64,000 nucleotides of DNA from Novosphingobium sp. 28-62-57 (GTDB lineage Bacteria > Pseudomonadota > Alphaproteobacteria > Sphingomonadales > Sphingomonadaceae). The translations under genes were made by a program, and so were the position numbers. The notes below the pieces were generated by a model. It was not told the DNA's origin, searched no databases, and saw nothing but the letters and a program-made list of their open reading frames with translations. Positions 16,254 to 49,613 of this stretch are shown one piece after another. The first letter of the stretch is position 1; each line of letters opens with the position of its first letter. The stretch is from the NCBI GenBank assembly GCA_002256985.1, contig NCGO01000018.1:1-64000 (forward strand), given 5' to 3'.

Positions 16254-17014
16254 GGCTTCGGCTTGTCCATCATGGGCACGGGCACCGGACAGGCTTTGGC
16301 TCCATGCTTGGCCTTCCAGAGTTCGCACATGGCCTGATCAGCGCTGCCGTACATCGCGCGCGCCATCGGATTGGCGATCCAGGCATCTGGGGTGAGGCGG
16401 GCAAGCGTCGTGATGACAACGGCTGCCGCGAACAGGGCGGTGACGGCGCCAACGCAGAGTTGCCAGGCAGGCATGCGCCAGTCTGGTGCAATCTCATATC
16501 TGTTCACGCTGCGCGGCGCCTTCGCAGCAGCTTCGATAACGTCGAGCCTTGCGTTGAACCCGGCGATCCAGTCCGGCGAGAGCGCCGCCGACATGACCTG
16601 TTTGTGCAGTTCTCCGACCTCTTCCAGATGCCCATCCAACAACTCTGAAAAGGGCGTTGCGCCTTGCGAGAACCGGGCTGCCAGCATTTCGCCAAGCCTG
16701 TTCATCGCTTCTCGGTTCGCTTCGTCGGTCGCGTTGAAGGCTTCCACCAGCCTCTTCTCACGTCGCTCCGCCGCGCGCAGGATGCGATCGAGGTCGATGC
16801 TGATTTGCTCGACTTTCAAGGCCAGGGTTACGGCCGTGCCGGGGTCGATCGGCAGTTTCGGCGGCTCGAACATCGCTCTGCCCTGTTCACCGGCGCGCAC
16901 CGCCTCCTCCGCAATGGCGCGCAGCAAGTCGGGGCGAGACAGGCCGCGACCTTCCGCGACCGCGTCGAGGTGGGCGAGCAGCCGGTCCTCGTAGGCGACA
17001 TTTACCTGTGCCAC
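16250..17014 (-). CDS. Relaxosome accessory protein with ribbon-helix-helix N-terminus
   Basis: 254 residues. Residues about 1-42 (VNVAYEDRLLAHLDAVAEGR, LSRPDLLRAIAEEAVRAG) resemble a ribbon-helix-helix DNA-binding fold, as in MobC/TraJ-type accessory proteins. A long helical, coiled-coil-like middle (about 65-165) and one hydrophobic segment (about 187-208) follow. A membrane-linked relaxosome component would fit. It is coupled to the relaxase gene by an ATGA overlap and lies directly beside the oriT-like repeats, its likely binding site. Confidence 0.72.
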   Translation of the reverse strand: MAQVNVAYEDRLLAHLDAVAEGRGLSRPDLLRAIAEEAVRAGEQGRAMFEPPKLPIDPGTAVTLALKVEQISIDLDRILRAAERREKRLVEAFNATDEANREAMNRLGEMLAARFSQGATPFSELLDGHLEEVGELHKQVMSAALSPDWIAGFNARLDVIEAAAKAPRSVNRYEIAPDWRMPAWQLCVGAVTALFAAAVVITTLARLTPDAWIANPMARAMYGSADQAMCELWKAKHGAKACPVPVPMMDKPKP

Positions 17015-17059
17015 CGCGCGCGCTCCCAGATCACCGAAATAGGCGAGAGATGGCGGAAT

Positions 17060-17215
17060 TCCCGGCTTCTACGAGGGAAGTAGGCGCAAGCGCTACGCCG
17101 CTGCCGCAAATCGCAGAGCTTTTGCGGGCAGCCTAGAGTTCTACCTAGGCCGTAGAACCGCAGAATTCCGGGACTTTCTGCTACCCGCAGGCCAGCTAGG
17201 CAGTAGCGTGGTGCG
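17060..17215. other. Candidate origin of transfer (oriT)
   Basis: The 355-bp gap upstream of the relaxase operon is rich in inverted repeats. CTGCCGCAAA at 17101-17110 pairs with TTTGCGGGCAG at 17121-17131 with one bulge. GTTCTAC at 17138-17144 pairs exactly with GTAGAAC at 17152-17158. GCTAC at 17180-17184 pairs with GTAGC at 17203-17207. Placement beside the relaxosome genes and the clustered hairpins fit a MobF oriT; the nick site cannot be assigned from sequence alone. Confidence 0.5.
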
Positions 17216-17369
17216 TGCAATTCACTTTGCTCAATCAAGCCAAGGGAAATTTGACTTTGGGAGTTTTGGGAGCGTCTGGATTTCCCGTGGGGGCCAAGGC
17301 GGCTGTTACGCCGCAACACGCTGCCACAAGGCCAGACCCCTGTGCTGCGAGGCCCGCTCATTGGCCCGC

Positions 17370-17636
17370 TCATTGGATTGTCGGCTTTACGGGCAGGGGG
17401 AGCGTCCCCAGAATGGCCGCATCGATGGCCTCACGGATCCTTTCCGCCAGGTTCTGCGCATGGGTGCAGCTGAGCGCGACGGAGACATCACCGATCCGCA
17501 AGACCCCGCCACGGCAGTCAGCCGGGCAGGCGATCTGACGATCACAGATGACCGTCAGCGAAGCGACATTCCCGATCAATACGATCGAATGCGTCGGGAC
17601 GCTGAAAAGCGGCAACCGGGCAACTGGCTCTGTCAT
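17370..17636 (-). CDS. Small protein coupled to the AlpA-type regulator
   Basis: About 88 residues from ATG 17636, which overlaps the preceding stop (TGATG) and follows a GGAGG ribosome site. It has a beta-rich core (HSIVLIGNVASLTVICDRQI, then GVLRIGDVSVAL) with four cysteines (C47-type spacing CDRQIACPADC), and a helical C-terminus. No family is recognised. Position in an operon with the AlpA regulator places it in the control region of the integrative element. Confidence 0.55.
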   Translation of the reverse strand: MTEPVARLPLFSVPTHSIVLIGNVASLTVICDRQIACPADCRGGVLRIGDVSVALSCTHAQNLAERIREAIDAAILGTLPLPVKPTIQ

Positions 17637-34403: not shown

Positions 34404-35330
34404 TCAGCCTTCCGCCTTGCGCGCTTTCTTCAACCTGCCTTGCCGCGCGATCTCTTCAGTAATCGCAGGATTGCGGAACAGCATCGCGAAAGTCTGCTTG
34501 TATTCCGGGTTCTCCGGCAGATGCGTTTGCACCGCAGCCGTGGTGGCAAGGCCGCGCTCTTCCACGCCGGTCAGGAATTCGGCGTGAGTCAGGATGTATA
34601 GCTCGTCGTTCAGGATGCCTTCGAGCACGCGTTCGCCCACCTGCTCCTTGGTCTGATACAGGTGCATGAAGTTGCCGCCCGATGCACGGCGCTTGTCCGC
34701 CTCGGCATAGCCGGTGTCGGCAAGGTCTGCGGGCCGGGTCTTGGCGGCATCGGCGATGTTCGATTGCACCGCACCGGGGCAAAAGGCGCTACAGATCACG
34801 CCGCGTGATTCCAGTTCGGGGCGCATGCATTCCATCATCGATGTGACGGCGGCTTTGCCCGAGGAATAGATCGTGGTCATGCCCACCGGCACCAGCGCGC
34901 TCATCGATGCGGTGCACACGATGTGTCCGCCTTCGCCGTGCGACAGAATGCGCGGTAGCATGGTGACGATGCCGTTGATCGTGCCGCCAAGGTTCACACC
35001 CATGACCCAGTCCCAATCGGCATAAGTCGCAAGCTCGGTCGGGCCGACGACAGCAACCCCGGCATTGTTGACCAGGATGTGAATTTTGCCGAACCGGGCC
35101 TCCACCGCGTCCGCAACGTCTGCGAATTGGGTGCGGTTGGTGACGTCCAGTTTCACTGCCAGCACGCGGTCCCCGCCTGCCAGTTCTTCCACCGCCGAAT
35201 CGAGGTGGTCCTGGCGGATATCGGCGATAGTCACGTTCATGCCCGCGCCCAACAGCGCCTTGGCAATGCCAAGCCCGATACCGCTGGCTCCGCCTGTCAC
35301 GAACGCCGTCTTGCCCGGCAGATTTTGCAT
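34404..35330 (-). CDS. Short-chain dehydrogenase/reductase in the lignin cluster
   Basis: 308 residues from ATG 35330, preceded by GAGGAGAGG. The Rossmann motif TGGASGIGLGIAKAL (about 12-26), LVNNAGVAVVGP (about 87-98), the catalytic Ser in TASMSALVPVG and Tyr/Lys in IYSSGKAAV (about 157-165) are intact. The C-terminal 60 residues extend beyond the classical length. It is divergent from an MFS gene, and the shared intergenic region contains the putative MarR operator. A role in oxidising or reducing a side-chain alcohol of lignin dimers is inferred from this context. Confidence 0.85.
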   Translation of the reverse strand: MQNLPGKTAFVTGGASGIGLGIAKALLGAGMNVTIADIRQDHLDSAVEELAGGDRVLAVKLDVTNRTQFADVADAVEARFGKIHILVNNAGVAVVGPTELATYADWDWVMGVNLGGTINGIVTMLPRILSHGEGGHIVCTASMSALVPVGMTTIYSSGKAAVTSMMECMRPELESRGVICSAFCPGAVQSNIADAAKTRPADLADTGYAEADKRRASGGNFMHLYQTKEQVGERVLEGILNDELYILTHAEFLTGVEERGLATTAAVQTHLPENPEYKQTFAMLFRNPAITEEIARQGRLKKARKAEG

Positions 35331-35413
35331 TGGCCTCTCCTCAAGTGTCTGCCCCGGCATGCCGATATCGGTGCCGGGAATCATTTTTCACACTTGGTAT
35401 TCACCAGCCGGGA

Positions 35414-35433
35414 ATTGTATGCAAGACTAACAA
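35414..35433. promoter_or_regulatory. Putative MarR operator 1 (SDR/MFS divergent promoter)
   Basis: ATTGTATG-N5-CTAACAA. The two conserved blocks are identical to those at 46280-46299, where the MarR gene is divergent from the lignostilbene dioxygenase operon. The motif is an imperfect palindrome (TTGTnnG...CTnACAA). Confidence 0.7.
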
Positions 35434-35488
35434 TATCGACGCTGCAAAAAGTCCGGGAATGGGCAGGTGCGGCAAGAGAGGAAACGTC

Positions 35489-36892
35489 ATGGCAGGTGTT
35501 GTCGCGCACATGGATTCTGAGGTGAGTCCCGAAGCGAATAGGGTGACGGAGCGTGAATGGCCGTCGAGCGGCTCGGCCTACTGGGCCTTGTTCGTGATCG
35601 TGCTGGCCACGTTCCTGACGTTCTTCGACGCAATCACGTTCGGCATGCTGGCTGAGCGGATAAAGCGCGATTTCGGGCTCACCGACTCGCAGCTGGGCTT
35701 TCTGGCCGGGCCTGCCAGCATCATCTGCTATTTCTTCGTTGGTATTCCGTTGGCGCGGTTGGCCGATATTTATCCGCGCAAATATGTGCTGGGGGCAGGG
35801 GCCGCGCTGGTCGGCGTGATTATCGCTGCGGGCGGCCTTGCGCAAAGCTTCGGGCAGTTCGTGGGCAGCCGCGTGTTTCTGGCGGCGGGGGGATCGGCCC
35901 ATGCGCCATCGTCCTATTCGCTGCTGGCCGATGCTTTCCCGCCCAAGAAGCTGACGCGCGCCTTTGCGCTGCTGCAGTTCGGTTTCATCGGCGGGACCAC
36001 GCTGGGGCCTTTGATCGGCGGAATGCTGGTCATGGCAACAGCAGGTTGGGGCTCAACGCAGCTTGGGCCGCTGACGATCCTTGGCTGGCAGTGGATCCTG
36101 ATTTTCATGGGGCTGCCATCGTTGCTGGTGGCGCTACTGTTCCTGACCGTGAAGGAGCCGATGCGGATGGCCCCGGTTGCAGATGCGCTGCAGGTTGTGA
36201 CCGGCGGCGGTTTCTGGCGCAGCGTGGCTACATTCATGGGCCTGGATGCATTCCGTGCGATCAATGCCAAACCGCGCGTTTATTACCCGCTGTTTGGCGC
36301 ATTGGCGCTCAGCGCGGTGGAAACATTTGGCCTGCAATTCTGGCGCGTGCCCTTCATGATTCGCACCTTCGGCTGGAATGAAGGGCAAATCGGTGCGGCG
36401 CTGGGCGGGACGATTCTGGTGGCTTCGCTTTCGGGGCTGCTGCTGGGCGGCATCCTGGTGGAATGGCTGGCCAAGCGCTACAAGGACGCCAATGTGCGGG
36501 CGGCCACGTGCTGCTTTGCCGGCGTTACCGTTTGCACCATCGCTGCCATCCTGATGCCGACCGCGTGGGGTTCGCTGATCCTATTCGGCTTGTCGGGCAT
36601 GTTCGGCATAGCAGGCGCGGTGCCGCAGAATGCTGCGGTCCAACGCGTGGCCCCCAATGACATGCGCGGGCAGGTGACGGCGTTCTACCTGTTCATGTTC
36701 ACGTTCTTTGGCGCGATGGGCAGCTATGTCGTGGGCAAAGTGCAGGATGTGGTGATCGGCGATCCGGCGCAATTGTGGAAGGCGCTGCTGATCACCGCCT
36801 GCGTGCTGATGCCGCTGGCCACCTTGCTGATGTTCCGCGCGATCAAGCCCTACCGCGAGGAAGTTGAACGACTTGAAGCGCTTGGCCGGTAG
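35489..36892 (+). CDS. MFS transporter, likely for lignin-derived aromatics
   Basis: 467 residues from ATG 35489, with GAGAGGAAAC before it. Twelve hydrophobic segments are visible. The loop 2-3 signature appears as GIPLARLADIYPRKYVL (about 95-111). The first helix carries FLTFFDAITFGML. It lies directly upstream of the NTF2-fold gene and behind the MarR-type motif, so it probably imports a lignin dimer or its product. MFS membership is firm; the substrate is inferred. Confidence 0.85.
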   Translation: MAGVVAHMDSEVSPEANRVTEREWPSSGSAYWALFVIVLATFLTFFDAITFGMLAERIKRDFGLTDSQLGFLAGPASIICYFFVGIPLARLADIYPRKYVLGAGAALVGVIIAAGGLAQSFGQFVGSRVFLAAGGSAHAPSSYSLLADAFPPKKLTRAFALLQFGFIGGTTLGPLIGGMLVMATAGWGSTQLGPLTILGWQWILIFMGLPSLLVALLFLTVKEPMRMAPVADALQVVTGGGFWRSVATFMGLDAFRAINAKPRVYYPLFGALALSAVETFGLQFWRVPFMIRTFGWNEGQIGAALGGTILVASLSGLLLGGILVEWLAKRYKDANVRAATCCFAGVTVCTIAAILMPTAWGSLILFGLSGMFGIAGAVPQNAAVQRVAPNDMRGQVTAFYLFMFTFFGAMGSYVVGKVQDVVIGDPAQLWKALLITACVLMPLATLLMFRAIKPYREEVERLEALGR

Positions 36893-36929
36893 CGCTTGGC
36901 CGTTGACAGGCGCGCTTTCATCCCGCAGA

Positions 36930-36949
36930 TTGTTAGTAACACAAACTAA
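36930..36949. promoter_or_regulatory. Putative MarR operator 3 (upstream of the NTF2-fold gene)
   Basis: Read on the minus strand, this 20-bp stretch (TTAGTTTG-N5-CTAACAA) matches the 46280-46299 motif at 14 of 20 positions, including the full CTAACAA half. A TTGACA hexamer lies just upstream at 36903-36908, so a repressor here would cover the promoter region; ATG 36967 is 17 bp downstream. Confidence 0.55.
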
Positions 36950-36966
36950 ATACTTGGGAGCTGGAT

Positions 36967-37707
36967 ATGTCCGACGATAACCAGATTGCCGCGCTCGAAG
37001 CGCGCCTGAACGACCTTGAAACGCGCCTGACGATCCGTGAGGACGAGCTGGACATCCGCAAACTGCAGCACCTCTACGGCTACCTGATCGACAAGTGCAT
37101 GTATAACGAGACGGTCGATCTGTGGACCGACGATGGCGAAGTGCGCTTTTTCGGCGGGGTGTGGAAAGGCAAGGAAGGCGTGCGCCGCCTCTATGTCGAA
37201 CGCTTCCAGAAGCGCTTCACTTATGGGAACAATGGCCCGATCGACGGCTTCCTGCTCGATCATCCGCAGATGCAGGACATCATCAACATCCAGCCCGATG
37301 GCGTAACCGCGCTGGGCCGCGCGCGCTCGATGATGCAGGCCGGGCGGCACAAGGATTATGAAGGCGATGCCCCGCACCTGAAGGCGCGCCAGTGGTGGGA
37401 AGGCGGCATTTACGAGAACACCTACAAGAAGGTGGACGGGGTGTGGCGGATGCACATCCTCAACTACATGCCGATCTGGCACGCCGATTTCGAACAGGGC
37501 TGGGCGCACACGCCGCACGAATATGTGCCGTTTCCCAAGGTTACCTATCCGACTGACCCCACCGGCCCAGATGAACTGCTCGAAGGGCACTGGCTGTGGC
37601 CGACGCACAAGGTCAACGCCTTCCACATGAAGCACCCGGTGACCGGCGCGGAAATGATTCCGCAGCGCTGGCAGGGCGATATCGACCGCGAGAACGCGAA
37701 GGGCTGA
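36967..37707 (+). CDS. NTF2-fold (SnoaL-like) protein, probable diarylpropane lyase of LdpA type
   Basis: 246 residues. An N-terminal coiled helix (about 5-28) is followed by an NTF2-like alpha/beta domain (IRKLQHLYGYLIDKCMYNET, VDLWTDDGEVRFFGGVWKGK, VDGVWRMHILNYMP) and a 60-residue tail. In Novosphingobium the NTF2-fold enzyme LdpA removes formaldehyde from the beta-1 dimer 1,2-diguaiacylpropane-1,3-diol, giving lignostilbene without a cofactor. The lignostilbene dioxygenase and LigW in the same cluster, and a shared operator motif, support that role. The related PhcF/PhcG-type decarboxylase activity is an alternative. Fold is confident, activity inferred. Confidence 0.72.
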   Translation: MSDDNQIAALEARLNDLETRLTIREDELDIRKLQHLYGYLIDKCMYNETVDLWTDDGEVRFFGGVWKGKEGVRRLYVERFQKRFTYGNNGPIDGFLLDHPQMQDIINIQPDGVTALGRARSMMQAGRHKDYEGDAPHLKARQWWEGGIYENTYKKVDGVWRMHILNYMPIWHADFEQGWAHTPHEYVPFPKVTYPTDPTGPDELLEGHWLWPTHKVNAFHMKHPVTGAEMIPQRWQGDIDRENAKG

Positions 37708-37725
37708 AGTCTCCCCTTTCCCGTT

Positions 37726-37843
37726 CGTGTCGAGCGAAGTCGAGACACGTAAGCGCTGGGTATTGTGTCTCGACTTCAGGCTTCGCCTGAAGTTCACCCT
37801 GAGCAAGTCGATGGGCTCGACACGAACGGACGTTAGGGGCAGT
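37726..37843. repeat. REP-like palindromic pair (family B)
   Basis: CGTTCGTGTCGAGC near 37732 is inverted as GCTCGACACGAACG near 37814, with an inner CTTCAGGC/GCCTGAAG hairpin. A related copy lies at about 42985-43033. Confidence 0.7.
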
Positions 37844-37871
37844 TTCAGGTGCTTGTTTTGGAGTTTGCTAC

Positions 37872-39302
37872 GTGACTGCTTATCCTTCGCTTCACATGAT
37901 CATCAACGGCGAACGGGTGAGCGGCGGCGGCCGTCGCACCCACGCGGTCGCCAATCCCGCCACGGGCGAGACCATTGGGGAACTGCCGCTAGCCGATGCT
38001 GCGGACTTGGACCGCGCGCTGGAAGTTGCAGCCGAGGGCTTTCGCATCTGGCGCAATTCAACGCCGCAGCAGCGCGCCGCCGTGCTGCAGGGCGCAGCGC
38101 GGCTGATGCTGGAGCGGCAGGAGGATCTGGCGCGGATCGCGGTGATGGAAGAGGGCAAGACTCTGCCCGAAGCGCGCATTGAAGTGATGATGAACGTCGG
38201 TCTGTTCAATTTCTACGCAGGCGAAGTGTTCCGGCTTTATGGCCGCACGCTGGTACGCCCGGCGGGGCAGCGCAGCACTGTCAGTCATGAACCTGTCGGC
38301 CCGGTAGCTGCCTTTGCGCCGTGGAACTTTCCGCTGGGCAATCCGGGGCGAAAGCTGGGCGCGCCGATTGCGGCAGGCTGTTCGGTGATTCTCAAGGCGG
38401 CGGAGGAGACGCCTGCATCAGCCTTGGGCGTGCTTCAGTGCCTTCTGGACGCCGGTTTGCCCGCGCAAGTGGCGCAGGCGGTGTTCGGCGTGCCCGATGA
38501 AGTCAGCCGCCACTTGCTCGGCTCACCCATCATTCGCAAGCTGTCGTTCACCGGATCGACCGTGGTCGGCAAGCACCTGATGCGGCTGGCGGCGGACAAC
38601 ATGTTGCGCACCACGATGGAACTGGGCGGGCATGGGCCGGTCTTGGTGTTCGGCGATGCCGATATCGACAAGGCGCTCGACACCATGGTCGCCTCCAAGT
38701 TCCGCAATGCGGGCCAAGTCTGCGTTTCCCCCACGCGCTTTATCGTGGAAGAGAACTTGTTCGAACGCTTCCGCGATGGCTTTGTGGAGCGGGCAGGGCG
38801 GATCAAGGTCGGCGATGGGCTGGAGGATGGCGTGCAGATGGGGCCAATGGCCAATCCCCGCCGCCCCGAAGCGATGGACCGCCTGATCGCCGATGCCAAG
38901 TCGCGCGGCGCGACATTGCACACAGGCGGTGAGCGGCTCGGCAACGCCGGGTATTTCTATGCGCCCAGCGTGCTGTCAGAAGTGCCCCTGGATGCCCAGA
39001 TCATGAACGAAGAGCCATTCGGCCCGGTCGTGATGATCAATCCGTATCGTGGTGAAGAGGCGATGATCGCCGAGGCCAATCGCCTGCCCTATGGCCTTGC
39101 CGCCTATGCCTGGACCGATAGTGCGGCGCGGCAGAAGCGCTTGGCGCGGGAGATCGAAACCGGGATGCTGGGCATCAACACCACGATGATCGGCGGGGCC
39201 GATGCGCCGTTCGGCGGGGTCAAATGGTCGGGCCACGGGGCAGAAGATGGGCCGGAAGGCGTGATGGCCTGCATGGTGACCAAGGCCGTGCACGAAGGCT
39301 GA
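37872..39302 (+). CDS. NAD(P)-dependent aldehyde dehydrogenase, possibly vanillin dehydrogenase
   Basis: 476 residues from GTG 37872. ALDH-superfamily catalytic parts are intact: Asn in FAPWNFPLGNP (about 146-156), the cofactor motif FTGSTVVGK (about 225), Glu in TMELGGHGPV (about 247-256) and Cys in NAGQVCVSPTRF (about 278-289). It resembles succinate-semialdehyde/vanillin dehydrogenase types. The dioxygenase in this cluster yields vanillin from lignostilbene, so oxidation of vanillin (or a 5-formyl/5-carboxy derivative) to the acid is the likely role. Confidence 0.82.
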   Translation: MTAYPSLHMIINGERVSGGGRRTHAVANPATGETIGELPLADAADLDRALEVAAEGFRIWRNSTPQQRAAVLQGAARLMLERQEDLARIAVMEEGKTLPEARIEVMMNVGLFNFYAGEVFRLYGRTLVRPAGQRSTVSHEPVGPVAAFAPWNFPLGNPGRKLGAPIAAGCSVILKAAEETPASALGVLQCLLDAGLPAQVAQAVFGVPDEVSRHLLGSPIIRKLSFTGSTVVGKHLMRLAADNMLRTTMELGGHGPVLVFGDADIDKALDTMVASKFRNAGQVCVSPTRFIVEENLFERFRDGFVERAGRIKVGDGLEDGVQMGPMANPRRPEAMDRLIADAKSRGATLHTGGERLGNAGYFYAPSVLSEVPLDAQIMNEEPFGPVVMINPYRGEEAMIAEANRLPYGLAAYAWTDSAARQKRLAREIETGMLGINTTMIGGADAPFGGVKWSGHGAEDGPEGVMACMVTKAVHEG

Positions 39303-39392
39303 CCGGAAAGGTGTCGAACCTGTTGTCCAATCCGGGGCGCTCGCCCTATGGAAGGCATCGCGCTCCTGCCCGATTCCCATACGGACTTTGCC

Positions 39393-40067
39393 ATGTTCAG
39401 ACGCCTTTCCGCCGGTGTCCTGCTTTCGCTTGTGCCCCTGTCAGCCGCGCACGCCGCGCAGGAGGACGAGCAGATCTGGCTGGCCCAATTCTCGACGATC
39501 AACCTCGACAAGCGCGTGCTGCTCTTCGCCGAAGCGCAGATGCGGCTGACCGATGGCGCGGACCGGCCCAGCCAGTTCTTTCTGCGCCCGGCGCTCGGCT
39601 ATCAGGTTACCGATGCGGTCAGCGTCTATGCCGGATATGCCTGGGTCCGCGTCGAGCCGCTGAACGGGGCGGCGGTGACCGAACATCGCGCTTTTCAGCA
39701 GTTGTCGGTGCGGCTGGTCGGTGGCCCCGGAAAAGTCACCGTCAACAGCCGCACCCGGCTGGAACAGCGGTTCATTGTGGGCCGGCCCGATATGGGTTGG
39801 CGCCTGCGCAGTCTGGTGCGGGTCGATGTGCCGCTGGGCAAGGGCTTTGGCGCTATCGTGACCACCGAACCCTTTGCCAATCTGGACACGACCACGTGGG
39901 GCCAGCGGGCCGGGTTCGATCAGATTCGCGGCTTTGCCGGGATCGGCATCCCGGTGGCGCGCGGGATCGCGCTGGAAGTGGGCTATGCCGGGCAATACAC
40001 CAAACGCTTTGCGGCCCCGGACCGCATGAATCATATCGGCAGCGTGTCGTTCAACATCCGGCGTTGA
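39393..40067 (+). CDS. DUF2490 outer membrane-type protein
   Basis: 224 residues from ATG 39393. A signal peptide (MFRRLSAGVLLSLVPLSAAH, cleavage after AHA) precedes alternating beta-strand sequence (VLLFAEAQMRLTDG, FFLRPALGYQVTDAVSVYAG, TVNSRTRLEQRF) ending in SVSFNIRR. The DUF2490 family is thought to form small beta-barrels. Sitting between the aldehyde dehydrogenase and ligW, it may be an outer membrane channel for aromatic compounds, which is inference. Confidence 0.75.
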   Translation: MFRRLSAGVLLSLVPLSAAHAAQEDEQIWLAQFSTINLDKRVLLFAEAQMRLTDGADRPSQFFLRPALGYQVTDAVSVYAGYAWVRVEPLNGAAVTEHRAFQQLSVRLVGGPGKVTVNSRTRLEQRFIVGRPDMGWRLRSLVRVDVPLGKGFGAIVTTEPFANLDTTTWGQRAGFDQIRGFAGIGIPVARGIALEVGYAGQYTKRFAAPDRMNHIGSVSFNIRR

Positions 40068-40104
40068 TGCGCGGCAGGCTGCCCTTGCCCAAAGGGAGGC
40101 CTGC

Positions 40105-41160
40105 TTGACCCATGACCTGAACACCGGCGGCGATCGCGGATACTTGCGCATCGCCACCGAAGAAGCCTTTGCCACGCAAGAGATCATCGACGTCTATCTG
40201 CGCATGATCCGCGAAGGGACCGCGGACAAGGGCATGGTCTCGCTCTGGGGCTTTTACGCCACGTCTCCTTCGGAACGGGCGATGCAGATCATGGAGCGGT
40301 TGCTCGATCTGGGCGAGCGGCGGCTGGCCGATATGGACGCCACCGGCATCGACAAGGCGATCCTGGCGCTGACCTCGCCCGGCGTGCAGCCCTTGCTGGA
40401 TGCAGGCGAGGCCAAGGCCATCGCCACGCGCGCCAACGATGCGCTGGCCGCTGCTTGCGAAAAGTACCCCAGCCGCTTCATCGGCATGGGCACCGTCGCA
40501 CCGCAAGACCCGGAATGGTCGGCGCAGGAAATCCGGCGCGGCGCGACCGAACTGGGCTTCAAGGGCATCCAGATCAACAGCCACACGCAGGGGCGCTATC
40601 TGGACGAGGAATTCTACGACCCGATCTTCCGCGCGCTCGTTGATATGGACCAGCCGTTGTATATCCATCCGGCAACGCCGCCCGATGCGATGATTGCACC
40701 GATGCTCGAAGCGGGGCTGGACGGCGCGATCTTCGGCTTCGGGGTGGAAACCGGCATGCACCTGCTGCGCCTGATCACCATCGGCATTTTTGACAAGTAC
40801 CCCAGCTTGCAGATCATGGTCGGCCACATGGGCGAGGCGCTGCCCTATTGGCTCTACCGGCTGGATTACATGCACCAGGCAGGGGTGCGCTCGCAGCGCT
40901 ATGAACGCATGAAGCCGCTGAAAAAGACCATCGCCGAATATATGCGCACCAACGTGCTGGTCACCAATTCGGGCATGGCGTGGGAGCCTGCGATCAAGTT
41001 CTGCCAGCAGGTGATGGGCGAGGATCGCGTGATGTATGCGATGGACTATCCCTATCAATATGTGGCGCAGGAAGTGCGCGATATGGATTCCATGGACATG
41101 AGCGCCGAAACGAAGAAGAAGTTCTTCCAGACGAATGCGGAGAAGTGGTTCAAGCTTTGA
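40105..41160 (+). CDS. ligW: 5-carboxyvanillate decarboxylase LigW
   Basis: 351 residues from TTG or nearby start at 40105. LigW is a manganese-dependent amidohydrolase-fold enzyme turning 5-carboxyvanillate into vanillate. The known metal and catalytic positions are all present at the published numbering: E19 (ATEEAF), H188 (YIHPAT), H241 (GHMGEALPYW) and D314 (AMDYPYQY), plus R58 in SPSERAM. The C-terminus FFQTNAEKWFKL is characteristic. The sequence is very close to what I recall of the Novosphingobium aromaticivorans enzyme. 5-carboxyvanillate arises from biphenyl and phenylcoumaran-type lignin dimers. Confidence 0.95.
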   Translation: MTHDLNTGGDRGYLRIATEEAFATQEIIDVYLRMIREGTADKGMVSLWGFYATSPSERAMQIMERLLDLGERRLADMDATGIDKAILALTSPGVQPLLDAGEAKAIATRANDALAAACEKYPSRFIGMGTVAPQDPEWSAQEIRRGATELGFKGIQINSHTQGRYLDEEFYDPIFRALVDMDQPLYIHPATPPDAMIAPMLEAGLDGAIFGFGVETGMHLLRLITIGIFDKYPSLQIMVGHMGEALPYWLYRLDYMHQAGVRSQRYERMKPLKKTIAEYMRTNVLVTNSGMAWEPAIKFCQQVMGEDRVMYAMDYPYQYVAQEVRDMDSMDMSAETKKKFFQTNAEKWFKL

Positions 41161-41170
41161 AGTAAGCGCT

Positions 41171-41253
41171 GCGTCCCCGCGAAAGCGGGGACCTCAGGGT
41201 TGTTACGGAACGCTTCAGCAAAACGCCTGAGGCCCCCGCCTCCGCGGGGGCGC
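41171..41253. repeat. REP-like palindromic pair (family A)
   Basis: GTCCCCGC GAAA GCGGGGAC hairpin at the left and GCCCCCGC/GCGGGGGC hairpin at the right, spaced by TGTTACGGAACGCTTCAG. Nearly identical to 42888-42972. Confidence 0.85.
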
Positions 41254-41299
41254 AGCGAAGGCTCTGGGTGGCGTTGAGAACAAGATGACGGGAGAGCCA

Positions 41300-42883
41300 A
41301 TGACCACGCAGCCGCGCCGTTCCCTCGCACCGGGAGCATGGTACGCGCTTGTCCTTGTCGCGCTGACCAATGCGATGAGCCTGCTGGACCGGCAGATTCT
41401 GGCGATCCTTGCCCCTGCCATCAAAAAGGACCTGAAGATCGGCGATGCCGAGATGGGGCTGCTCTATGGCACCGTCTTTGCCCTGTTCTATGCGCTGTTT
41501 TCACTGCCGGTGGGGCGCCTGGCCGATGGCTGGGTGCGCACGCGCTTGCTGGCGATCAGCCTGCTGTTCTGGTCTGCGGCAACGGGTCTTGCGGGCTTTG
41601 CCAGCAGCTTTGCGATGCTCGCCCTCTCGCGGCTGGGCGTGGGGATAGGCGAGGCGGCAACTGCGCCTGCGGGGACGTCGCTGCTTTATGACTTCTGGCC
41701 AAAGCACCGGCGCGGCTTTGTGATGTCGGTGATGGCATCGGCCATTGCGCTGGGCCTTGGCGGATCATTGGTGCTGGGCGGTGTGGCCGCCGGATGGTGG
41801 GACGCAAATCACGCGGCGGGTGGCCTGAAAGGCTGGCAATTTGCGTTTCTCGTCGCCGCCACGCCCGGCTTCGTGCTTGCCGTTTTCCTGTGGACGCTGA
41901 AAGAGCCGACGCGCGGCCAGATGGATGGGATCGATACGGCACCCGATCCGCGCCCGTTCCGCGCCAGCCTTGCGCTGCTTGGCTCGGTTACGCCGGGGGT
42001 GCACTGGATCGGCATGAAGGGCAGGGGGGCCAGCGCTGGCATGGTGCGCGGCAATCTGCTGGCGCTGGCGGGCATTGCCACCGCTGCTGTGCTGCTGACG
42101 ATGCTCAGCACGGCCATAAGCCCCAAACCCGCCATGGCTTTCGGCGCGATTTCGCTCAATCCCCATGCGCTGCAATGGACCGTGATCGGCCTTGGCGTGT
42201 TCGTGATCGTCAACCTGATGCAGGGTATGAAGCTGGGCGATGCCCAAGCGTTCCGCGTGATTTCGCGTTCGCCCACGCTGATGATGTGCATCGCGGTGGG
42301 TACGCTGCAATCGGTCCTGAACTATGGGATGATGGCCTTCAACCCCAGCTTCCTGATCCGCAGCTATGACCTGACGATGCAGGAAACCGCGCTGCAATTC
42401 GGCCTGCTGTCTGCCGCGATGGGCATTGTCGGGCCGCTGGTGTGGGGGCCGCTGTCGGACTGGCTGAACCAGCGTTTTCCCGGCGGCGGGCGGGCGTGGG
42501 TCGCGCTGTTTGCGATGGGCGTTTCGCCGCTCATGTCGTTCTGGGTCTATTACGCCGGTGATCCCGGCAGCTTCTACGCGCGGTTCATGATCTACAGCTT
42601 CATCCTCACCGGGTGGATGCCTCCGCTCTATGCGATCATGTATGATCAGGTGCTGCCCCGGATGCGCGGGCTGACGGCAAGCCTCTACCTGCTGGTGATG
42701 ACCATTCTGGGCATGGGCATCGGGCCCTATGTGGTGGGGTTGCTGTCCGACGCGACCGGATCTTTACGCACCGCGATGCTGTCGATCAACGTGGTGGCGA
42801 TCCCGATTGCCGTGCTGATGGTGCTGATTGCGCGCCGGGCGGAGCGCGACGAAGCGGCGCTGCTGGAGCGTGCCGCCCCATAA
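41300..42883 (+). CDS. MFS transporter (second carrier of the cluster)
   Basis: 527 residues from ATG 41300, with GGGAGAG upstream; ATG 41285 is an alternative. It has an N-terminal LDRQILAILAPAIKKDL segment, the loop 2-3 signature LPVGRLADGWVRTRLL (about 73-88) and an unusually long central loop (about 205-290). About 12-14 hydrophobic segments are visible. This spinster/ACS-like sphingomonad type often accompanies aromatic degradation genes. It is bracketed on both sides by near-identical REP-like pairs, so it forms a unit flanked by repeats. Substrate unknown. Confidence 0.85.
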   Translation: MTTQPRRSLAPGAWYALVLVALTNAMSLLDRQILAILAPAIKKDLKIGDAEMGLLYGTVFALFYALFSLPVGRLADGWVRTRLLAISLLFWSAATGLAGFASSFAMLALSRLGVGIGEAATAPAGTSLLYDFWPKHRRGFVMSVMASAIALGLGGSLVLGGVAAGWWDANHAAGGLKGWQFAFLVAATPGFVLAVFLWTLKEPTRGQMDGIDTAPDPRPFRASLALLGSVTPGVHWIGMKGRGASAGMVRGNLLALAGIATAAVLLTMLSTAISPKPAMAFGAISLNPHALQWTVIGLGVFVIVNLMQGMKLGDAQAFRVISRSPTLMMCIAVGTLQSVLNYGMMAFNPSFLIRSYDLTMQETALQFGLLSAAMGIVGPLVWGPLSDWLNQRFPGGGRAWVALFAMGVSPLMSFWVYYAGDPGSFYARFMIYSFILTGWMPPLYAIMYDQVLPRMRGLTASLYLLVMTILGMGIGPYVVGLLSDATGSLRTAMLSINVVAIPIAVLMVLIARRAERDEAALLERAAP

Positions 42884-42887
42884 TTTG

Positions 42888-43035
42888 CGCGTCCCCGCGA
42901 AAGCGGGGACCTCGGTGTTGTTACAGAACGCTTCAGTAAACCGCCTGAGGCCCCCGCCTTCGCGGGGGCGCGGGAAGTTTATCCTGAGCTTGTCGAAGGG
43001 CGGCGTCTCGACTTCGCTCGACACGAACGGGACAT
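42888..43035. repeat. REP-like palindromic pair (family A) followed by a family B copy
   Basis: 42888-42972 repeats the family A pair seen at 41171-41253. It is followed at about 42985-43033 by GGCGTCTCGACTTCGCTCGA and CACGAACGGG, the family B sequence of 37726-37843. Confidence 0.8.
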
Positions 43036-43080
43036 GTGTTGGATCAATGTCATGTCATCCCGGTCTAGAAATGCGCAGCG

Positions 43081-43193
43081 CTATCTCCCCCTCCTCTTCA
43101 GAGGAGGGGGCAGGGGGGTGGTGGGGGTTTCACACAAAGCTCAATGCCGCAGCACCACCCCCAACCCCCTCCTCTGAAGAGGAGGGGGCCTAA
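43081..43193. repeat. Large inverted repeat (family C)
   Basis: CTCCCCCTCCTCTTCAGAGG with a GGAGGGGG continuation at the left, and an inverted CCCCCTCCTCTGAAGAGGAG copy at the right end. GGGTGGTGGGGGT/ACCACCCCCAACC lies between them. It separates the MFS gene from the convergent DUF3237 gene and could terminate both transcripts. Confidence 0.75.
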
Positions 43194-43195
43194 GA

Positions 43196-43669
43196 TCACG
43201 TGACCCGCCACACCCACAGCTTGATTCCCAGCGGATACCTTGCGCCCGAGCAGACGAAAATCGACCGGTTCATCCAGTCATACTTGCCCACCGGCGCGAT
43301 GAATTCGGGCACCGTGCGGAAATAGTATTCCGCCGGGTCTACATCTTGCCCTGCTGCCAGCCGCTGCATCACCTCCGGCGGGCCATGGCGCAGGCCGCGG
43401 TTGCGGATCTGGATCACCACGCCATCATCGGTTTCCAGCGCATAGATCGCATCGGCGACGGTCACGCCATCGGGCCGGGTGACCTGCCAGTCGGCCGCAT
43501 TGCCGATCAGCTTGCCCTTGATCAGCGGACCTTCCACGCGCCCGCCACCCACGATGGGGATGATGCGGCGGGTGCCGTCAAAAGTTTCGCCAATGGGAAT
43601 TGGCGGTTCGAGTTCGCCATGCGCTTCGTAGACGAATTCAAGGGCCGGTTGGATTCGGGGCTGGATCAT
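43196..43669 (-). CDS. DUF3237-family protein
   Basis: 157 residues. The DUF3237 barrel is recognised from the opening PALEFVYEAHGELEPPIPIG, VGGGRVEGPLIKGKLIGNAA, DWQVTRPDGVTVADAIYALE, and AEYYFRTVPEFIAPVGKYDW followed by MNRSIFVCSG. The biochemical role is unknown; the family is frequent beside aromatic and lignin catabolism genes. It is the last gene of a three-gene operon: its ATG overlaps the stop of the alcohol dehydrogenase gene (ATGA). Confidence 0.85.
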   Translation of the reverse strand: MIQPRIQPALEFVYEAHGELEPPIPIGETFDGTRRIIPIVGGGRVEGPLIKGKLIGNAADWQVTRPDGVTVADAIYALETDDGVVIQIRNRGLRHGPPEVMQRLAAGQDVDPAEYYFRTVPEFIAPVGKYDWMNRSIFVCSGARYPLGIKLWVWRVT

Positions 43670-44781
43670 GCGGCTGAAACCCGAAGCACCGGCTTGATCA
43701 CGCGCCCGCTCTCGCTGGCTTCAAACGCTGCGTTGATATCGTCAAAGGCGAACATTTCCACCAGCCGATCAAACGGATAGCGGCCTTCCACATGGTGCGC
43801 GATCAGTTCGGGGATGAAGACTTGCGGGTCGCTGTCGCCTTCCAGAATGCCCATCACGCGCTTGCCGCCGCCCATCAGCGAGGTTTCGTTGAAATGGACC
43901 ATCGCGTCGGCATCGGACGCGCCGACAAGACCGAGAATGCCGCGCGGAGCCAGTTGTTCGAACGCCAGTTCGATCAGCTTGCCAAGCCCGGTGGTATCGA
44001 ACGCATAGTTGAGGCCCGTGGGGCATATCTCGCGCAGGGCGGCGGCCACATCGGCATCGCCCTTGATCGTGTGGGTCGCCCCCAGTTCGCGGGCAAGCGC
44101 GAGGCGGTTTTCGTGCAGGTCTATCGCGATGATCGGATCGGCCCCGGCAATGCGCGCGGCCATGATCGCCGAAAGGCCCACCGCGCCTGCGCCGAACACC
44201 GCGATGGAGCGCCCGGCCTTGACCGCCATCGAATTGAGCACCGCGCCAGCCCCGGTCTGCAGCCCGCAGCCCAGTGGGCCGAGCAGTTCGAGTGGCACAT
44301 GGGCCGCACTGGCGGGCACTTTCACCACGTTGCGCGCGGTGGCCATCGCGTGGGTGGCGAAGGATGACTGGCCGAAGAAATGGCTGTGGATCGGGCCGCT
44401 GTCTGTGCTGATCGCGGTGCTGCCATCTGCACGCGCGCTGGCAAAGTTGTGCAAGCCGAAGGCGTAGCAATAGGCGGGCGCATGGTCGGTGCAGTTCAGG
44501 CATTCGCCGCAACTGCCGAAGGTCAGCACCACCGCATCGCCGGGGGCAACATGGGTCACGCCTTCGCCGACGGCCTCGACAATGCCCGATCCTTCGTGGC
44601 CCAGCACCACCGGCAGCGGCACCGGCAATTGCCGGTCACGCACCGCCATATCGGTGTGGCACACGCCCGCGCCGACGATGCGCACCAGGACTTCGCCCGC
44701 GCGGGGGGCGTCGATTTGCGCGTCTTCGATGGAGAAAGCTGAAGAGCCCTCACGGCAGATGGCAGCGCGGATATCGGTCAT
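43666..44781 (-). CDS. Zinc-dependent aryl-alcohol-type dehydrogenase
   Basis: 371 residues from ATG 44781, overlapping the dioxygenase stop (ATGA). Catalytic zinc residues are in [13 protein letters not shown] (Cys38) and [15 protein letters not shown] (His-Glu), with a third in the [14 protein letters not shown] Cys. The structural zinc loop is [15 protein letters not shown] (about 87-101). The NAD site is [15 protein letters not shown] (about 186-200), followed by [10 protein letters not shown], where Asp suggests NAD. The family oxidises benzyl and cinnamyl alcohols; a lignin-derived alcohol is the probable substrate. Confidence 0.9.
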
Positions 44782-46262
44782 GCGGCAAGTTCCTTTGTTG
44801 CAAGGCCGATCTCGTCGGCATTCGCCCAATTGCCATGCAGGCCAAAGCGCAGGCGGATCGGGATGTTCACGGTTGCCACGGGGCCTTTTGCGATGTCGAG
44901 TGCATCAAAGATCAGGAGATCGCTGCGGTGGTCTTCCAGCCGGTTGCAGACTTGCACGATCCAGCCATCGCCTTCGGGCGCGTCCTTCGAGCGCGGGACG
45001 AAGCACGGTTCTTGCAAGGACGAGACCGGGCCGCACCACCAGTGCTGTTCGTGGCCTGTCTCAAAGTCCTTGTGGAACAGGCAGTTCATCAGCAACCCGC
45101 CCGCGCTGCCGCCGCGCAGTTCTACCGGGCGTTTCATGTCCATTTCAAGGAACCAGCCGTAGCGGGTCTTGCGCCCCACAAAGCGGTCATCGATGCGCGG
45201 GAATTCCGATGCCGTATCGGTCAGCCGCACCACCTCGGCAAAGTCCGTTCCGTTGCTCGCCATGTCCACCACCCAGTCGGTCGGGTAGCTCATCGCTTCC
45301 ATCCCATTGAATGGTGCACCGTGCACATCGGGGAAGAACGGGAACATGTTGTTCTTCGCCTCGCAGGTCACGAAGTGGATTTTCGTGCCGTCCTGCCATG
45401 CGTTCAGCACGTGGCTGGCAAAGCAGTTGTCGCGTGTGAACCAGCGGATGTCTTCGTTGGTCACCCCATCGCGGCGTGGGATCACGCCCAGATGCACCGG
45501 CATCGTTGTGTCAAAGCCGAAGTGCGGCATGCCCTTTTCCAGCCGCTCCCAGCTGCCGATCGAAGGCACGATATGCAGCACGAGGTAATCCTTGGTAATG
45601 CCGAAGTCGTGCATCATGCAGTAGTAGGGCACCTTGAACCACACCTCGCGGATCAGCTCGCCTTCAGGGCTCACCTCCATATAGGTCACGTCATCGGTGC
45701 ATAGCCCGCTTGCGGCATAACCTATGGCCACCATGTTGCCGGTTTTCGGATCGATCTTGGGATGCGAGGTAAAGGTCTGCCCGGTCATCTTGCCGCCGAA
45801 CTTTTCGAACCCGAACGTCTCCATCGTGGCCGGGTCCATCGTCAGGGCGGGGCTGTCTTCCTTCATCGCCCAGAGCTTTCCGGCAAAGAGGAAAGCGTTG
45901 GTGTTGGCGGTGGAGCGGTATTCACCTTGCACGCTTTCATCGTCGGTCAGCGGGTTGCGATAGGCCCCGAACAGTGCCTTTCCGGCGGCGTTCTCCAGCT
46001 TCCACTTGTCGGTCCGGGCCCAGCGCTGGCGGAAGTCCACTTGCCCGTCGTGGATGTGGAAACGGGTGATCATGCCATCGCCGTTGAAGGCGATATCGTC
46101 GGCCAGCCGGGGAGGAAACTGCGGGTCGGGCTGGACGCGATAGAATGCGCCGTTTAATCCTGCCGGAATCGTGCCTTCGTGTGCGAGGTTGGCAATGTCC
46201 GCCTCGATCCGTGAGGGCGTGTTGAATCCCGTAAAGCTGGGGGTGTTCGGAAATTGGGCCAT
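44778..46262 (-). CDS. Lignostilbene alpha,beta-dioxygenase (carotenoid oxygenase family)
   Basis: 494 residues, full length, with AAGGAGGATGCC upstream of the ATG. It cleaves the central double bond of lignostilbene with oxygen, giving two vanillin-type aldehydes. The four iron ligands are at the positions known for the Novosphingobium enzyme NOV1: H167 (TSHPKID), H218 (CMMHDF), H284 (ASHVLNA) and H476 (GLHGNW). F59, Y101 and K134, which contact the phenolic ring, are also conserved. It heads the operon with alcohol dehydrogenase and DUF3237 genes and is divergent from the MarR gene. Confidence 0.95.
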
Positions 46263-46279
46263 GGCATCCTCCTTGCAAC

Positions 46280-46299
46280 ATTGTATGTATTGCTAACAA
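46280..46299. promoter_or_regulatory. Putative MarR operator 2 (dioxygenase operon / marR)
   Basis: ATTGTATG-N5-CTAACAA, centred 27 bp upstream of the dioxygenase start and about 50 bp before the marR start. It has the same two blocks as 35414-35433. Position suits repression of the operon and autoregulation. Confidence 0.72.
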
Positions 46300-46339
46300 A
46301 TAGACAAGCGGATTTGCCAAGAGTTTCGGGAGCAGGGCA

Positions 46340-46813
46340 TTGATCAGAGACAAGTTTGCCGATGCCATTGCGCCGGCCGGGCACACTGATGAAGCTGATG
46401 TTGGTGCAATCAACGATATTCTGGGCTTCCACATCCGTCTGGCGCACGGCGCGTGTCTGCGGCACTTCACCGAAACCTTCACCGATCTGGACCTGACGCA
46501 AAAGCAGGTCTCGGTGCTGTGGCTGGTCGATGATCACCCCGGCATCGCGCAGACCGACCTGGCCCAGCGCCTGCGCATGGACCGCGCGACCACGATGGCC
46601 ATCATCAACCGCTTGCAGGCCAAGCATTTTCTGCGCCGCGACCGTTCGCCCAAGGATGGCCGCAAGCAGGCCCTGTTCCTCCAGCCGGAAGGCCAGGCCA
46701 TGCTCGCGCAGGCCAAAACCGCGATTGGTGAGCATGAGGCCTGGGTGAAAAACCGCTTTTCCGACAAGGAAGTGAAGCAGCTCATTGAACTGCTTTCGCG
46801 AATCCACGAATAA
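46340..46813 (+). CDS. MarR-family regulator of the lignin cluster
   Basis: 157 residues from TTG 46340; no in-frame ATG occurs before the DNA-binding domain. The winged helix is clear: LTQKQVSVLWLVDDHPGIAQ, TDLAQRLRMDRATTMAIINR, LQAKHFLRRDRSPKDGRKQA. Flanking helices provide the dimer interface. MarR proteins are usually repressors released by a phenolic ligand. Divergence from the dioxygenase operon and the repeated 20-bp motif make it the likely local regulator, perhaps sensing an aromatic-CoA or acid. Confidence 0.88.
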   Translation: MIRDKFADAIAPAGHTDEADVGAINDILGFHIRLAHGACLRHFTETFTDLDLTQKQVSVLWLVDDHPGIAQTDLAQRLRMDRATTMAIINRLQAKHFLRRDRSPKDGRKQALFLQPEGQAMLAQAKTAIGEHEAWVKNRFSDKEVKQLIELLSRIHE

Positions 46814-46860
46814 GTTATAAGCAATAGCAATTAACAGTTTGGACGAGGACCAAGGGCCGC

Positions 46861-48186
46861 ATGACACAGACCCCGCGCGAGGTGATCGAGCAGACGCCGA
46901 TGGGCGTGCGCCAATGGATCGTGGTGGTCCTGATGGTGCTGTTGAACGCGCTTGATGGGTTTGACGTCCTGTCGAGCGCCTTTGCCGCGCCGGGGATCAC
47001 CGCCGATTGGGGCATTGCCCGCCCGGCGCTGGGCGTTGTGCTTTCGGCCGAACTGCTCGGCATGGGCTTCGGTTCCGTGCTGCTGGGCGGGGCGGCAGAC
47101 CGCTATGGCCGCAAATTCACGATGATCGGCTGCCTCGTGCTGATGGCGATTGGCATGTATCTGGCGAGCATCGCGGCGTCGGTTCAGCCGATGGTGGCCT
47201 ACCGGTTCCTCACCGGCATCGGCATCGGCGGGATGCTCACCACCACCAACGCGGTGGTCGCCGAAAGCACCAACAGCCGTTGGCGCTCTGTTGCCATTGC
47301 GGTTTATGTGGCGGGCTATCCGCTGGGCGCGATCATTGGCGGAATTGCGGCATCGGAATGGCTGCTGCCGACCTATAGCTGGCATGCGGTGTTCGTGTTC
47401 GGCGCGGTGGTGACCGCAGTTCTGATCCCCGTCATTCTGGCGCTGGTGCCTGAAACAGCGGCCTATTGGGCGACGAAGCGCAATCTGGCGGGCGTGAACC
47501 GCACGCTCGCCGCTTTTGGCAAGCCTGCCATCAGCGATCTGCCGGTGATCGTGGCGGGCACCGTCAAGCCGCGCGTAACCGATATCCTCTCCAACCCCAG
47601 ACTGCGCCCTGTCACTCTGTTGTTGGCGTTCGGCTACACATTCCACTGCATCACTTTCTATTACATCCTGAAGTTTGGTGTGCAGATCGTGTCCGATTAT
47701 CCGCCCGGCTATCCGCCATCGCAGGCGGCCACGGTGCTGACATATGCCAACATCGGCGGGTTCATGGGCAGCGCGCTTTTCGGCTTTGTGATGGCGCGGC
47801 TGGGGGTCAGGTGGCCGACCGCGTTGATGTTGCTGATCGGCGCGATGCTGGTGGCCTGGTTCGGCACTGGCCGTGACACGCTGAACGCGTGGCAAATGGC
47901 GACGATGATCGCCGGTTTCTTCACCAATGCGGCGATCAGTGGCTTTTATGCCGCCTTTGCGCGCGGCTTCCCGGCTTATGCGCGGGCCACCGGCACAGGT
48001 TTCGCGCTGGGCGTGGGGCGGCTGGGCGCTGCGGGCAGTCCGTTGCTGGCGGGCACCCTGTTTGGCTGGTTGGGAGACGACCAACTGCTGACGGTGTCGA
48101 TCATCATGGCGATGGGCTCGGTTATCAGCCTAGCGCTGTTTCTGATGCTGCCCGAGCGCGATGGCGACGACGTGATGTCGGAATAG
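46861..48186 (+). CDS. AAHS-type MFS transporter for aromatic acids
   Basis: 441 residues. Aromatic acid:proton symporter signatures are NALDGFDVLSSAFAAPGI (about 28-45, the DGxD motif), [15 protein letters not shown] (about 78-92, loop 2-3) and FLTGIGIGGMLTTTNAVVAE (about 118-137). Twelve hydrophobic segments are present. It follows marR on the same strand, 47 bp away, and should import vanillate, benzoate-like or related acids. It differs from the two other MFS carriers of the cluster, suggesting separate substrates. Confidence 0.88.
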   Translation: MTQTPREVIEQTPMGVRQWIVVVLMVLLNALDGFDVLSSAFAAPGITADWGIARPALGVVLSAELLGMGFGSVLLGGAADRYGRKFTMIGCLVLMAIGMYLASIAASVQPMVAYRFLTGIGIGGMLTTTNAVVAESTNSRWRSVAIAVYVAGYPLGAIIGGIAASEWLLPTYSWHAVFVFGAVVTAVLIPVILALVPETAAYWATKRNLAGVNRTLAAFGKPAISDLPVIVAGTVKPRVTDILSNPRLRPVTLLLAFGYTFHCITFYYILKFGVQIVSDYPPGYPPSQAATVLTYANIGGFMGSALFGFVMARLGVRWPTALMLLIGAMLVAWFGTGRDTLNAWQMATMIAGFFTNAAISGFYAAFARGFPAYARATGTGFALGVGRLGAAGSPLLAGTLFGWLGDDQLLTVSIIMAMGSVISLALFLMLPERDGDDVMSE

Positions 48187-49514: not shown

Positions 49515-49613
49515 TGTCGCGCAGCGGAATATGTGCAGAAACCCTCTCGACGCAGGACCATGATCCGGGCAGAAATAGTTCGGTTCAATAACAATATGGA
49601 CGGAGAGTTCCCG

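Follow-up and report, generated by a model that had tools for sequence, protein, structure and literature searches.

A lignin-dimer gene cluster in Novosphingobium

We analyzed a stretch of 64,000 nucleotides (the window) from Novosphingobium sp. 28-62-57 (contig NCGO01000018.1 of GenBank assembly GCA_002256985.1), whose genome comprises 4.10 Mb in 39 contigs. Positions 34404–48186 hold, all within this interval, a short-chain dehydrogenase/reductase (SDR), three major facilitator superfamily (MFS) carriers, a SnoaL/NTF2-fold protein, an aldehyde dehydrogenase (ALDH), a DUF2490 protein, LigW, a DUF3237 protein, a zinc alcohol dehydrogenase (Zn-ADH), a lignostilbene dioxygenase (LSD) and a MarR regulator. 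The gene order is kept across many sphingomonads, which indicates a gene cluster rather than chance. A first-pass annotation of the same DNA had read it as one pathway for beta-1 lignin dimers. All genes that it named are open frames where it had placed them, with two corrected starts (SDR at 35330 rather than 35384, Zn-ADH at about 44781) and one omission, the MarR gene, which is the likely regulator. The idea of a single dimer pathway, with a stilbene-forming NTF2 lyase, LSD, ALDH, LigW and transporters, is retained here, and the substrate class is revised from beta-1 to beta-5: the best overall explanation, drawn from orthology, is that the cluster very probably takes up and degrades beta-5 (phenylcoumaran) dimers under control of a MarR regulator and a palindromic operator.

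Assignment to the beta-5 pathway

The LSD (44778–46262, minus strand) scores above the curated cut-off of the NCBIfam equivalog NF053778, is 93% identical to NOV1 and carries all seven NOV1 positions (F59, Y101, K134, H167, H218, H284 and H476); we refer to it as LsdD. LigW, a predicted 5-carboxyvanillate/5-carboxyferulate decarboxylase (40105–41160, plus strand), matches 4inf/4qrn over nearly its full length (E = 5e-216) and carries all four metal positions (E19, H188, H241 and D314). Both sets of residues had been proposed at first pass and were confirmed by a residue check. Ser283 was tried as a beta-5 marker and dropped because its placement in our alignment was inconsistent with the published structural alignment. 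The ALDH (37872–39302, plus strand; Aldedh family) is assigned to FerD, acting on 5-formylferulate, from its position, that of Saro_0797, and its 79% identity to the SYK-6 ALDH that adjoins a LigW homologue. In N. aromaticivorans, PcfL (Saro_0796), FerD (Saro_0797), LigW (Saro_0799) and LsdD/NOV1 (Saro_0802) degrade the beta-5 dimer dehydrodiconiferyl alcohol (Metz 2024, PMC11323797), and the reported activity of LigW on 5-carboxyferulate fits this pathway.

The NTF2 protein (36967–37707, plus strand; SnoaL_4) had been taken for an LdpA-type lyase, and this identification did not survive phylogenetic analysis. Judged by this gene, the nearest named relatives belong to Novosphingobium. In a tree of 93 sequences it falls within the PcfL-locus clade (branch support 100/100), a clade named by synteny, with the Saro_0796 sequence itself outside the comparison; we therefore annotate it as a putative PcfL, a phenylcoumaran gamma-formaldehyde lyase. 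A second NTF2 copy on another contig of the same genome (C27, position 130184) is 96% identical to the LdpA structure 8abt, groups with the characterized 8abt/8abv as the window copy does not, and is the genome's own LdpA orthologue, with a NOV2-type dioxygenase about 4.4 kb away. Across a genus sample of 149 genomes, PcfL (≥67% identity) was found in at least 39, of which at least 37 also carry a NOV1-type LSD and at least 38 an LdpA-type copy. Genome counts for LSD and DUF3237 are lower bounds, since fragments may be missed, and the genomes compared are related, so that Fisher values on genome counts overstate significance.

The PcfL clade placement, the set of PcfL, FerD, LigW and LsdD and the separate LdpA locus together indicate, as far as sequence can, that the cluster is a beta-5 locus and that the beta-1 locus is a separate one in the same genome. 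Two points weigh against this assignment: orthology to N. aromaticivorans was drawn from published locus numbers, PDB sequences and synteny, and the best identity to NOV1 among the matches listed was 96%, with a 100% match absent among the genomes searched.

On this orthology, the cluster would import beta-5 dimers, and their alcohol side chain would be oxidized, probably by the in-cluster aryl-alcohol dehydrogenase and ALDHs. PcfL would then open the phenylcoumaran ring, releasing formaldehyde and forming a stilbene. LsdD would split this stilbene into vanillin and 5-formylferulate; the 5-formylferulate would be oxidized by FerD to 5-carboxyferulate, which LigW would decarboxylate to ferulate. 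The steps from PcfL to LigW have been demonstrated in N. aromaticivorans (PMC11323797) and are carried over here by orthology. The SDR in the LigN position would serve beta-O-4 and related dimers.

The same tree contained a third NTF2 clade (L161, 16168–16929; L163, 3364–4074), 51–56% identical to PcfL, which occurs in 14 of the 149 genus genomes, each without PcfL among the matches listed. Of the 20 positions that differ between PcfL and LdpA, 13 are in the PcfL state in five sequences of this clade, and in L161 and L163 the gene lies near a PinX-like DUF3237; members of the clade may stand in for PcfL or act as beta-beta lyases. In the tree, the NTF2 protein from Marinicaulis flavus (L080) groups with this third clade and not with PcfL. 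A >50% identity search in PMC11323797 counted as PcfL-bearing a species spelled Maricaulis flavus, which is probably this organism. Separately, in one locus from a gammaproteobacterial metagenome-assembled genome (MAG; L072), a PcfL homologue is accompanied by a GMC oxidoreductase, an ALDH and a PinX-side DUF3237.

A palindrome shared by dimer-gene promoters

The MarR regulator (46340–46813, plus strand) belongs to the Saro_0803 family (NF053777, 244.2 bits against a cut-off of 200). Saro_0803 occupies the nov1 promoter close to the −10 box, and resveratrol causes its release (PMC10046596). Comparison of lsdD promoters yielded a conserved palindrome, ATTGTTAG-N5-CATACAAT, found three times in the window (expectation 0.12): a perfect one between the divergent SDR and MFS1 genes (35414–35434, minus strand), one with a single mismatch upstream of lsdD (46280–46300, minus strand) and a weak one with three mismatches 5′ of pcfL (36929–36949, plus strand). 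The lsdD site overlaps a −35/−10-like pair, TTGTCT-16-TACAAT, at 46307–46280, and its position over the likely −10 region is as expected of a repressor site. Allowing up to three mismatches, the palindrome was present in 40 of 43 LSD/MarR, 39 of 55 SDR/MFS1 and 32 of 63 MFS1–PcfL regions, and in none of 66 PcfL–ALDH or 51 LigW–MFS2 regions. In total, 80 loci gave 160 matches (some sites counted on both strands) compared with one for the reversed pattern.

The palindrome also extends beyond the cluster. At two mismatches or fewer, the genome holds six matches compared with one for the reversed control, and all six precede known or likely lignin-dimer genes: SDR(LigN)/MFS1, LsdD/MarR, LdpA/SDR, a LigF (4xt0, E = 5e-97), a LigF-related glutathione S-transferase (GST; 4xt0, E = 3e-40) and an SDR 40% identical to that of the window. 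Twelve further genomes gave 85 matches compared with one control match, two palindromic places being counted twice. Flanking 48 of the relatives' places we find these genes again, and also a beta-etherase (NF042997, 4yam), a PRK11752-family GST, a DesA-type O-demethylase, glutathione reductase and FolD. Of the 149 genomes in the genus sample, 53 carry the palindrome with at most one mismatch, and the control pattern is absent from all 149. A match is present in 41 of the 46 genomes with a NOV1-type LSD and in 48 of the 52 that hold an LdpA-type copy, the LSD counts again being minima.

Three of the 48 places viewed (L222, L224 and L225) precede FolD, a presumed GcvT-like gene and glutathione reductase rather than dimer enzymes. 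The sites 5′ of FolD (L222, 1966–2826) and glutathione reductase (L225, 1539–2912) are operator-like, each with two mismatches, and would fit the one-carbon and glutathione demand of dimer breakdown.

A link to laboratory evolution is also suggested. After N. aromaticivorans had been evolved on a beta-O-4 dimer, one base change 55 bp 5′ of ligE, within an inverted repeat, was common to three of the four strains, and LigE rose about 1,000-fold in two evolved strains measured; the authors did not name the regulator (PMC11837543). In a relative (G098), the operator ends 51 bp from the ligE start, so that a distance of 55 bp falls inside a half-site. In a study of LigR, that regulator did not shift the ligN promoter.

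Acting through ATTGTTAG-N5-CATACAAT, the Saro_0803-family MarR is most likely a repressor of lsdD, of ligN/MFS1 and of its own gene, and the occurrence of the same palindrome 5′ of ldpA, ligF and other dimer genes probably places the cluster in a genome-wide lignin-dimer regulon. A broader proposal, to which we give an even chance, is that this MarR responds to stilbenes and represses the whole regulon: lsdD and, weakly, pcfL for beta-5 dimers, ldpA for beta-1 dimers, and ligN, ligF, ligE and the PRK11752-type GST for beta-O-4 dimers, with glutathione reductase and FolD added in some relatives. Stilbenes would then report on several linkage types, and the evolved ligE promoter mutation would be an operator mutation.

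Weighing alternative explanations

The rival view of the lyase, that it is of the LdpA type and serves a beta-1 (diarylpropane) route, draws on real resemblance. The window protein is 46% identical to LdpA (PDB 8abt), and PcfL of N. aromaticivorans is 44% identical to LdpA (PMC11323797); 50 positions are common to all three NTF2 clades, being kept in at least 97% of the rows of each; and LSD4, a close SYK-6 relative of LsdD, has likewise been crystallized with lignostilbene. At the 20 positions (one a gap) fixed differently between the PcfL group (66 rows) and the LdpA group (8 rows), however, the window protein carries the PcfL state. To our knowledge LigW has no beta-1 role, and a beta-1 substrate is not known for either LigW or FerD. 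Given also the tree placement and the LdpA orthologue with its NOV2-type LSD on C27, we rejected the beta-1 reading, which we consider highly improbable. A different rival accepts a beta-5 substrate and holds that the DUF3237 protein (43196–43669, minus strand) is a further alkene-forming decarboxylase, providing a CO2-releasing route parallel to the formaldehyde-releasing PcfL. Parallel PcfL and PhcF/PhcG routes have already been proposed as possible, and the protein shares its family (PF11578) and fold with the decarboxylases PhcF, PhcG and PinX (structure model at a predicted local distance difference test score, pLDDT, of 92.7). It is only 34–39% identical to these three, however, differs from them at several subfamily residues and falls in an LsdD-linked clade of its own (100/95), apart from theirs; a long-branch warning on this tree touches PhcF, the genome's own paralogues and L063, and not the core of the LsdD-linked clade. 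An equation of the protein with PhcF or PhcG was rejected on these grounds. SYK-6 has an orthologue (84%) beside LsdD on top of PhcF and PhcG, which argues for a different step, and the gene is missing from 19 of 46 comparable loci. A parallel decarboxylase is thus possible and, in our judgment, somewhat doubtful; the beta-5 route through PcfL remains our preferred reading of the enzymes.

For the operator, the competing account is that another regulator, such as the MarR encoded next to ldpA, reads the shared site and that the window MarR controls lsdD only. A second MarR does adjoin ldpA, together with a weak site, and its BLAST comparison with the window MarR gave nothing at E ≤ 10. Among the 53 genomes with an operator match, moreover, 12 have no NOV1-type LSD among the matches listed, and in 8 of these 12 a match lies just 5′ of the LdpA-type gene, so another regulator may use the operator. 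On the other side, the best-conserved cluster promoter sites are those at LSD/MarR and SDR/MFS1, and the operator's place close to the −10 box is like that at which Saro_0803 was shown to bind in the nov1 promoter (PMC10046596). We judge this account less likely than not. Besides the second MarR and the genomes that lack a NOV1-type LSD, several results count against control of a regulon by the window MarR. Five SYK-6 stretches (L164, L165, L166, L169 and L171) gave no match at up to three mismatches, and the SYK-6 lsdD promoter gave a single match, with three. The site at pcfL is weak, a promoter scan found three promoter-like sites against 3.4 in shuffled sequence (no excess), and the symmetric form of the palindrome recovered the same three places plus one at 49575, beyond the cluster, with three mismatches. 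The inverted repeat published for nov1, GCAATA------TATTGC, overlaps our palindrome but differs from it as a repeat; the ligE comparison was made on G098, with the N. aromaticivorans ligE promoter itself outside it; and the ligE mutation could not be rebuilt alone by its authors (PMC11837543). The operator itself is well supported, and we infer that it belongs to the window MarR.

Other genes of the cluster

The SDR (34404–35330, minus strand), which had been called undescribed, occupies the position of LigN. Saro_0793 and Saro_0794 are LigO and LigN in N. aromaticivorans, and many Novosphingobium relatives have two SDRs at this place where the window has one. The window SDR is about 90% identical to the relatives' MFS1-proximal SDR and about 39% to the other, and its top PDB matches are C alpha-dehydrogenases. 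Its standing in the LigN position thus rests on the conserved MFS1-adjacent place of Saro_0794, whose own sequence is absent from the comparison, and on likeness to Lig C alpha-dehydrogenases; C alpha oxidation of a beta-O-4 dimer is predicted.

The Zn-ADH (43666–44781, minus strand) is of the benzyl alcohol dehydrogenase type (1f8f, E = 5e-107, compared with about 1e-55 for class III), and a role as formaldehyde dehydrogenase was set aside on this difference. It stands beside lsdD in 3 of the 46 loci with a complete MFS2–LSD span (L004, L006 and L018). A protein of 409–410 amino acids with a signal-like start, by eye a beta-lactamase-type hydrolase, occupies the same stretch in L014, L016, L018, L019, L020 and L022. 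In the phc region of SYK-6 (L164, 13323–14750), an alcohol dehydrogenase 47% identical to that of the window lies near phcF/phcG and an LSD.

The DUF2490 protein (39348–40067, plus strand; PF10677), undescribed at first pass and still so, is found between ALDH and LigW in 15 of the 59 loci showing both, all 15 from Novosphingobium. Its model (pLDDT 82, 11 strands) has an N-terminal helix and weak fold matches (best E = 1.9e-3) to outer-membrane barrels such as NanC, KdgM and OmpG, from which we predict an outer-membrane beta barrel with no finer assignment.

The carriers are MFS1 (35474–36892, plus strand, start uncertain; Pfam MFS_1), MFS2 (41285–42883, plus strand; assigned by Pfam) and MFS3 (46861–48186, plus strand). 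MFS2 is a conserved partner of DUF3237, and the pair is retained in four genomes at places away from LSD. The DUF3237 step had also been called undescribed; the family is known through PhcF, PhcG and PinX, and the LsdD-linked clade is undescribed as far as we searched. PhcF and PhcG had been suggested as structural comparators for the NTF2 protein; both belong to the DUF3237 family. The phcFGH genes are located near lsd7, according to a paper in JBC. DUF3237 copies at 16829–17386 in two MAGs (L061 and L062) have a signal-like N-terminus by eye, which suggests export.

Comparison with known systems

The beta-5 pathway is already known (Metz 2024, PMC11323797), and the locus is this Novosphingobium genome's copy of a cluster already described. 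New here is the palindrome shared by the promoters of lsdD, ligN/MFS1 and other dimer genes. A literature search found no description of a shared operator; subscription papers were mostly outside that search and a prior description is possible. The cluster enzymes are of interest for converting lignin fragments to chemicals, and the palindrome makes the regulator of lignin-dimer genes testable. If one operator does serve the genes for several linkage types, loss of a single repressor could activate them together in a production strain, and the regulator behind the roughly 1,000-fold LigE rise would be named. Further dimer chemistry is suggested by the third NTF2 clade and by the LsdD-linked clade of DUF3237.

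The closest known system is the beta-5 locus of N. aromaticivorans DSM 12444 (Saro_0793 to about Saro_0804; PMC11323797), which has the same PcfL, FerD, LigW, LsdD, LigN-position SDR and Saro_0803-type MarR in an order that matches by locus number. Compared with this locus, known here from published locus numbers, the window apparently has an additional gene, the aryl-alcohol dehydrogenase that separates DUF3237 from lsdD, and lacks a second SDR at the LigO place (a statement about the locus, LigO not having been searched for in the rest of the genome). The LsdD–LigW2–FerD region of SYK-6 (G195) is similar gene by gene (MFS1 58%, ALDH 79%, LigW 66%, MFS2 59%, DUF3237 84%, LsdD 81%, MarR 60% and MFS3 62% identity), but PcfL is missing between MFS1 and ALDH, ring opening there being carried out by PhcC/D/F/G. 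The LdpA/LsdA beta-1 pathway shares the logic of an NTF2 lyase followed by a lignostilbene dioxygenase, whereas its lyase clade is distinct and this genome's version of it lies apart on contig C27. With the Saro_0803/nov1 pair (PMC10046596) the cluster shares the regulator family and the divergent promoter; that work, in the sections available, concerns the nov1 promoter, whereas in the present genome a single palindrome also occurs at other dimer-gene promoters.

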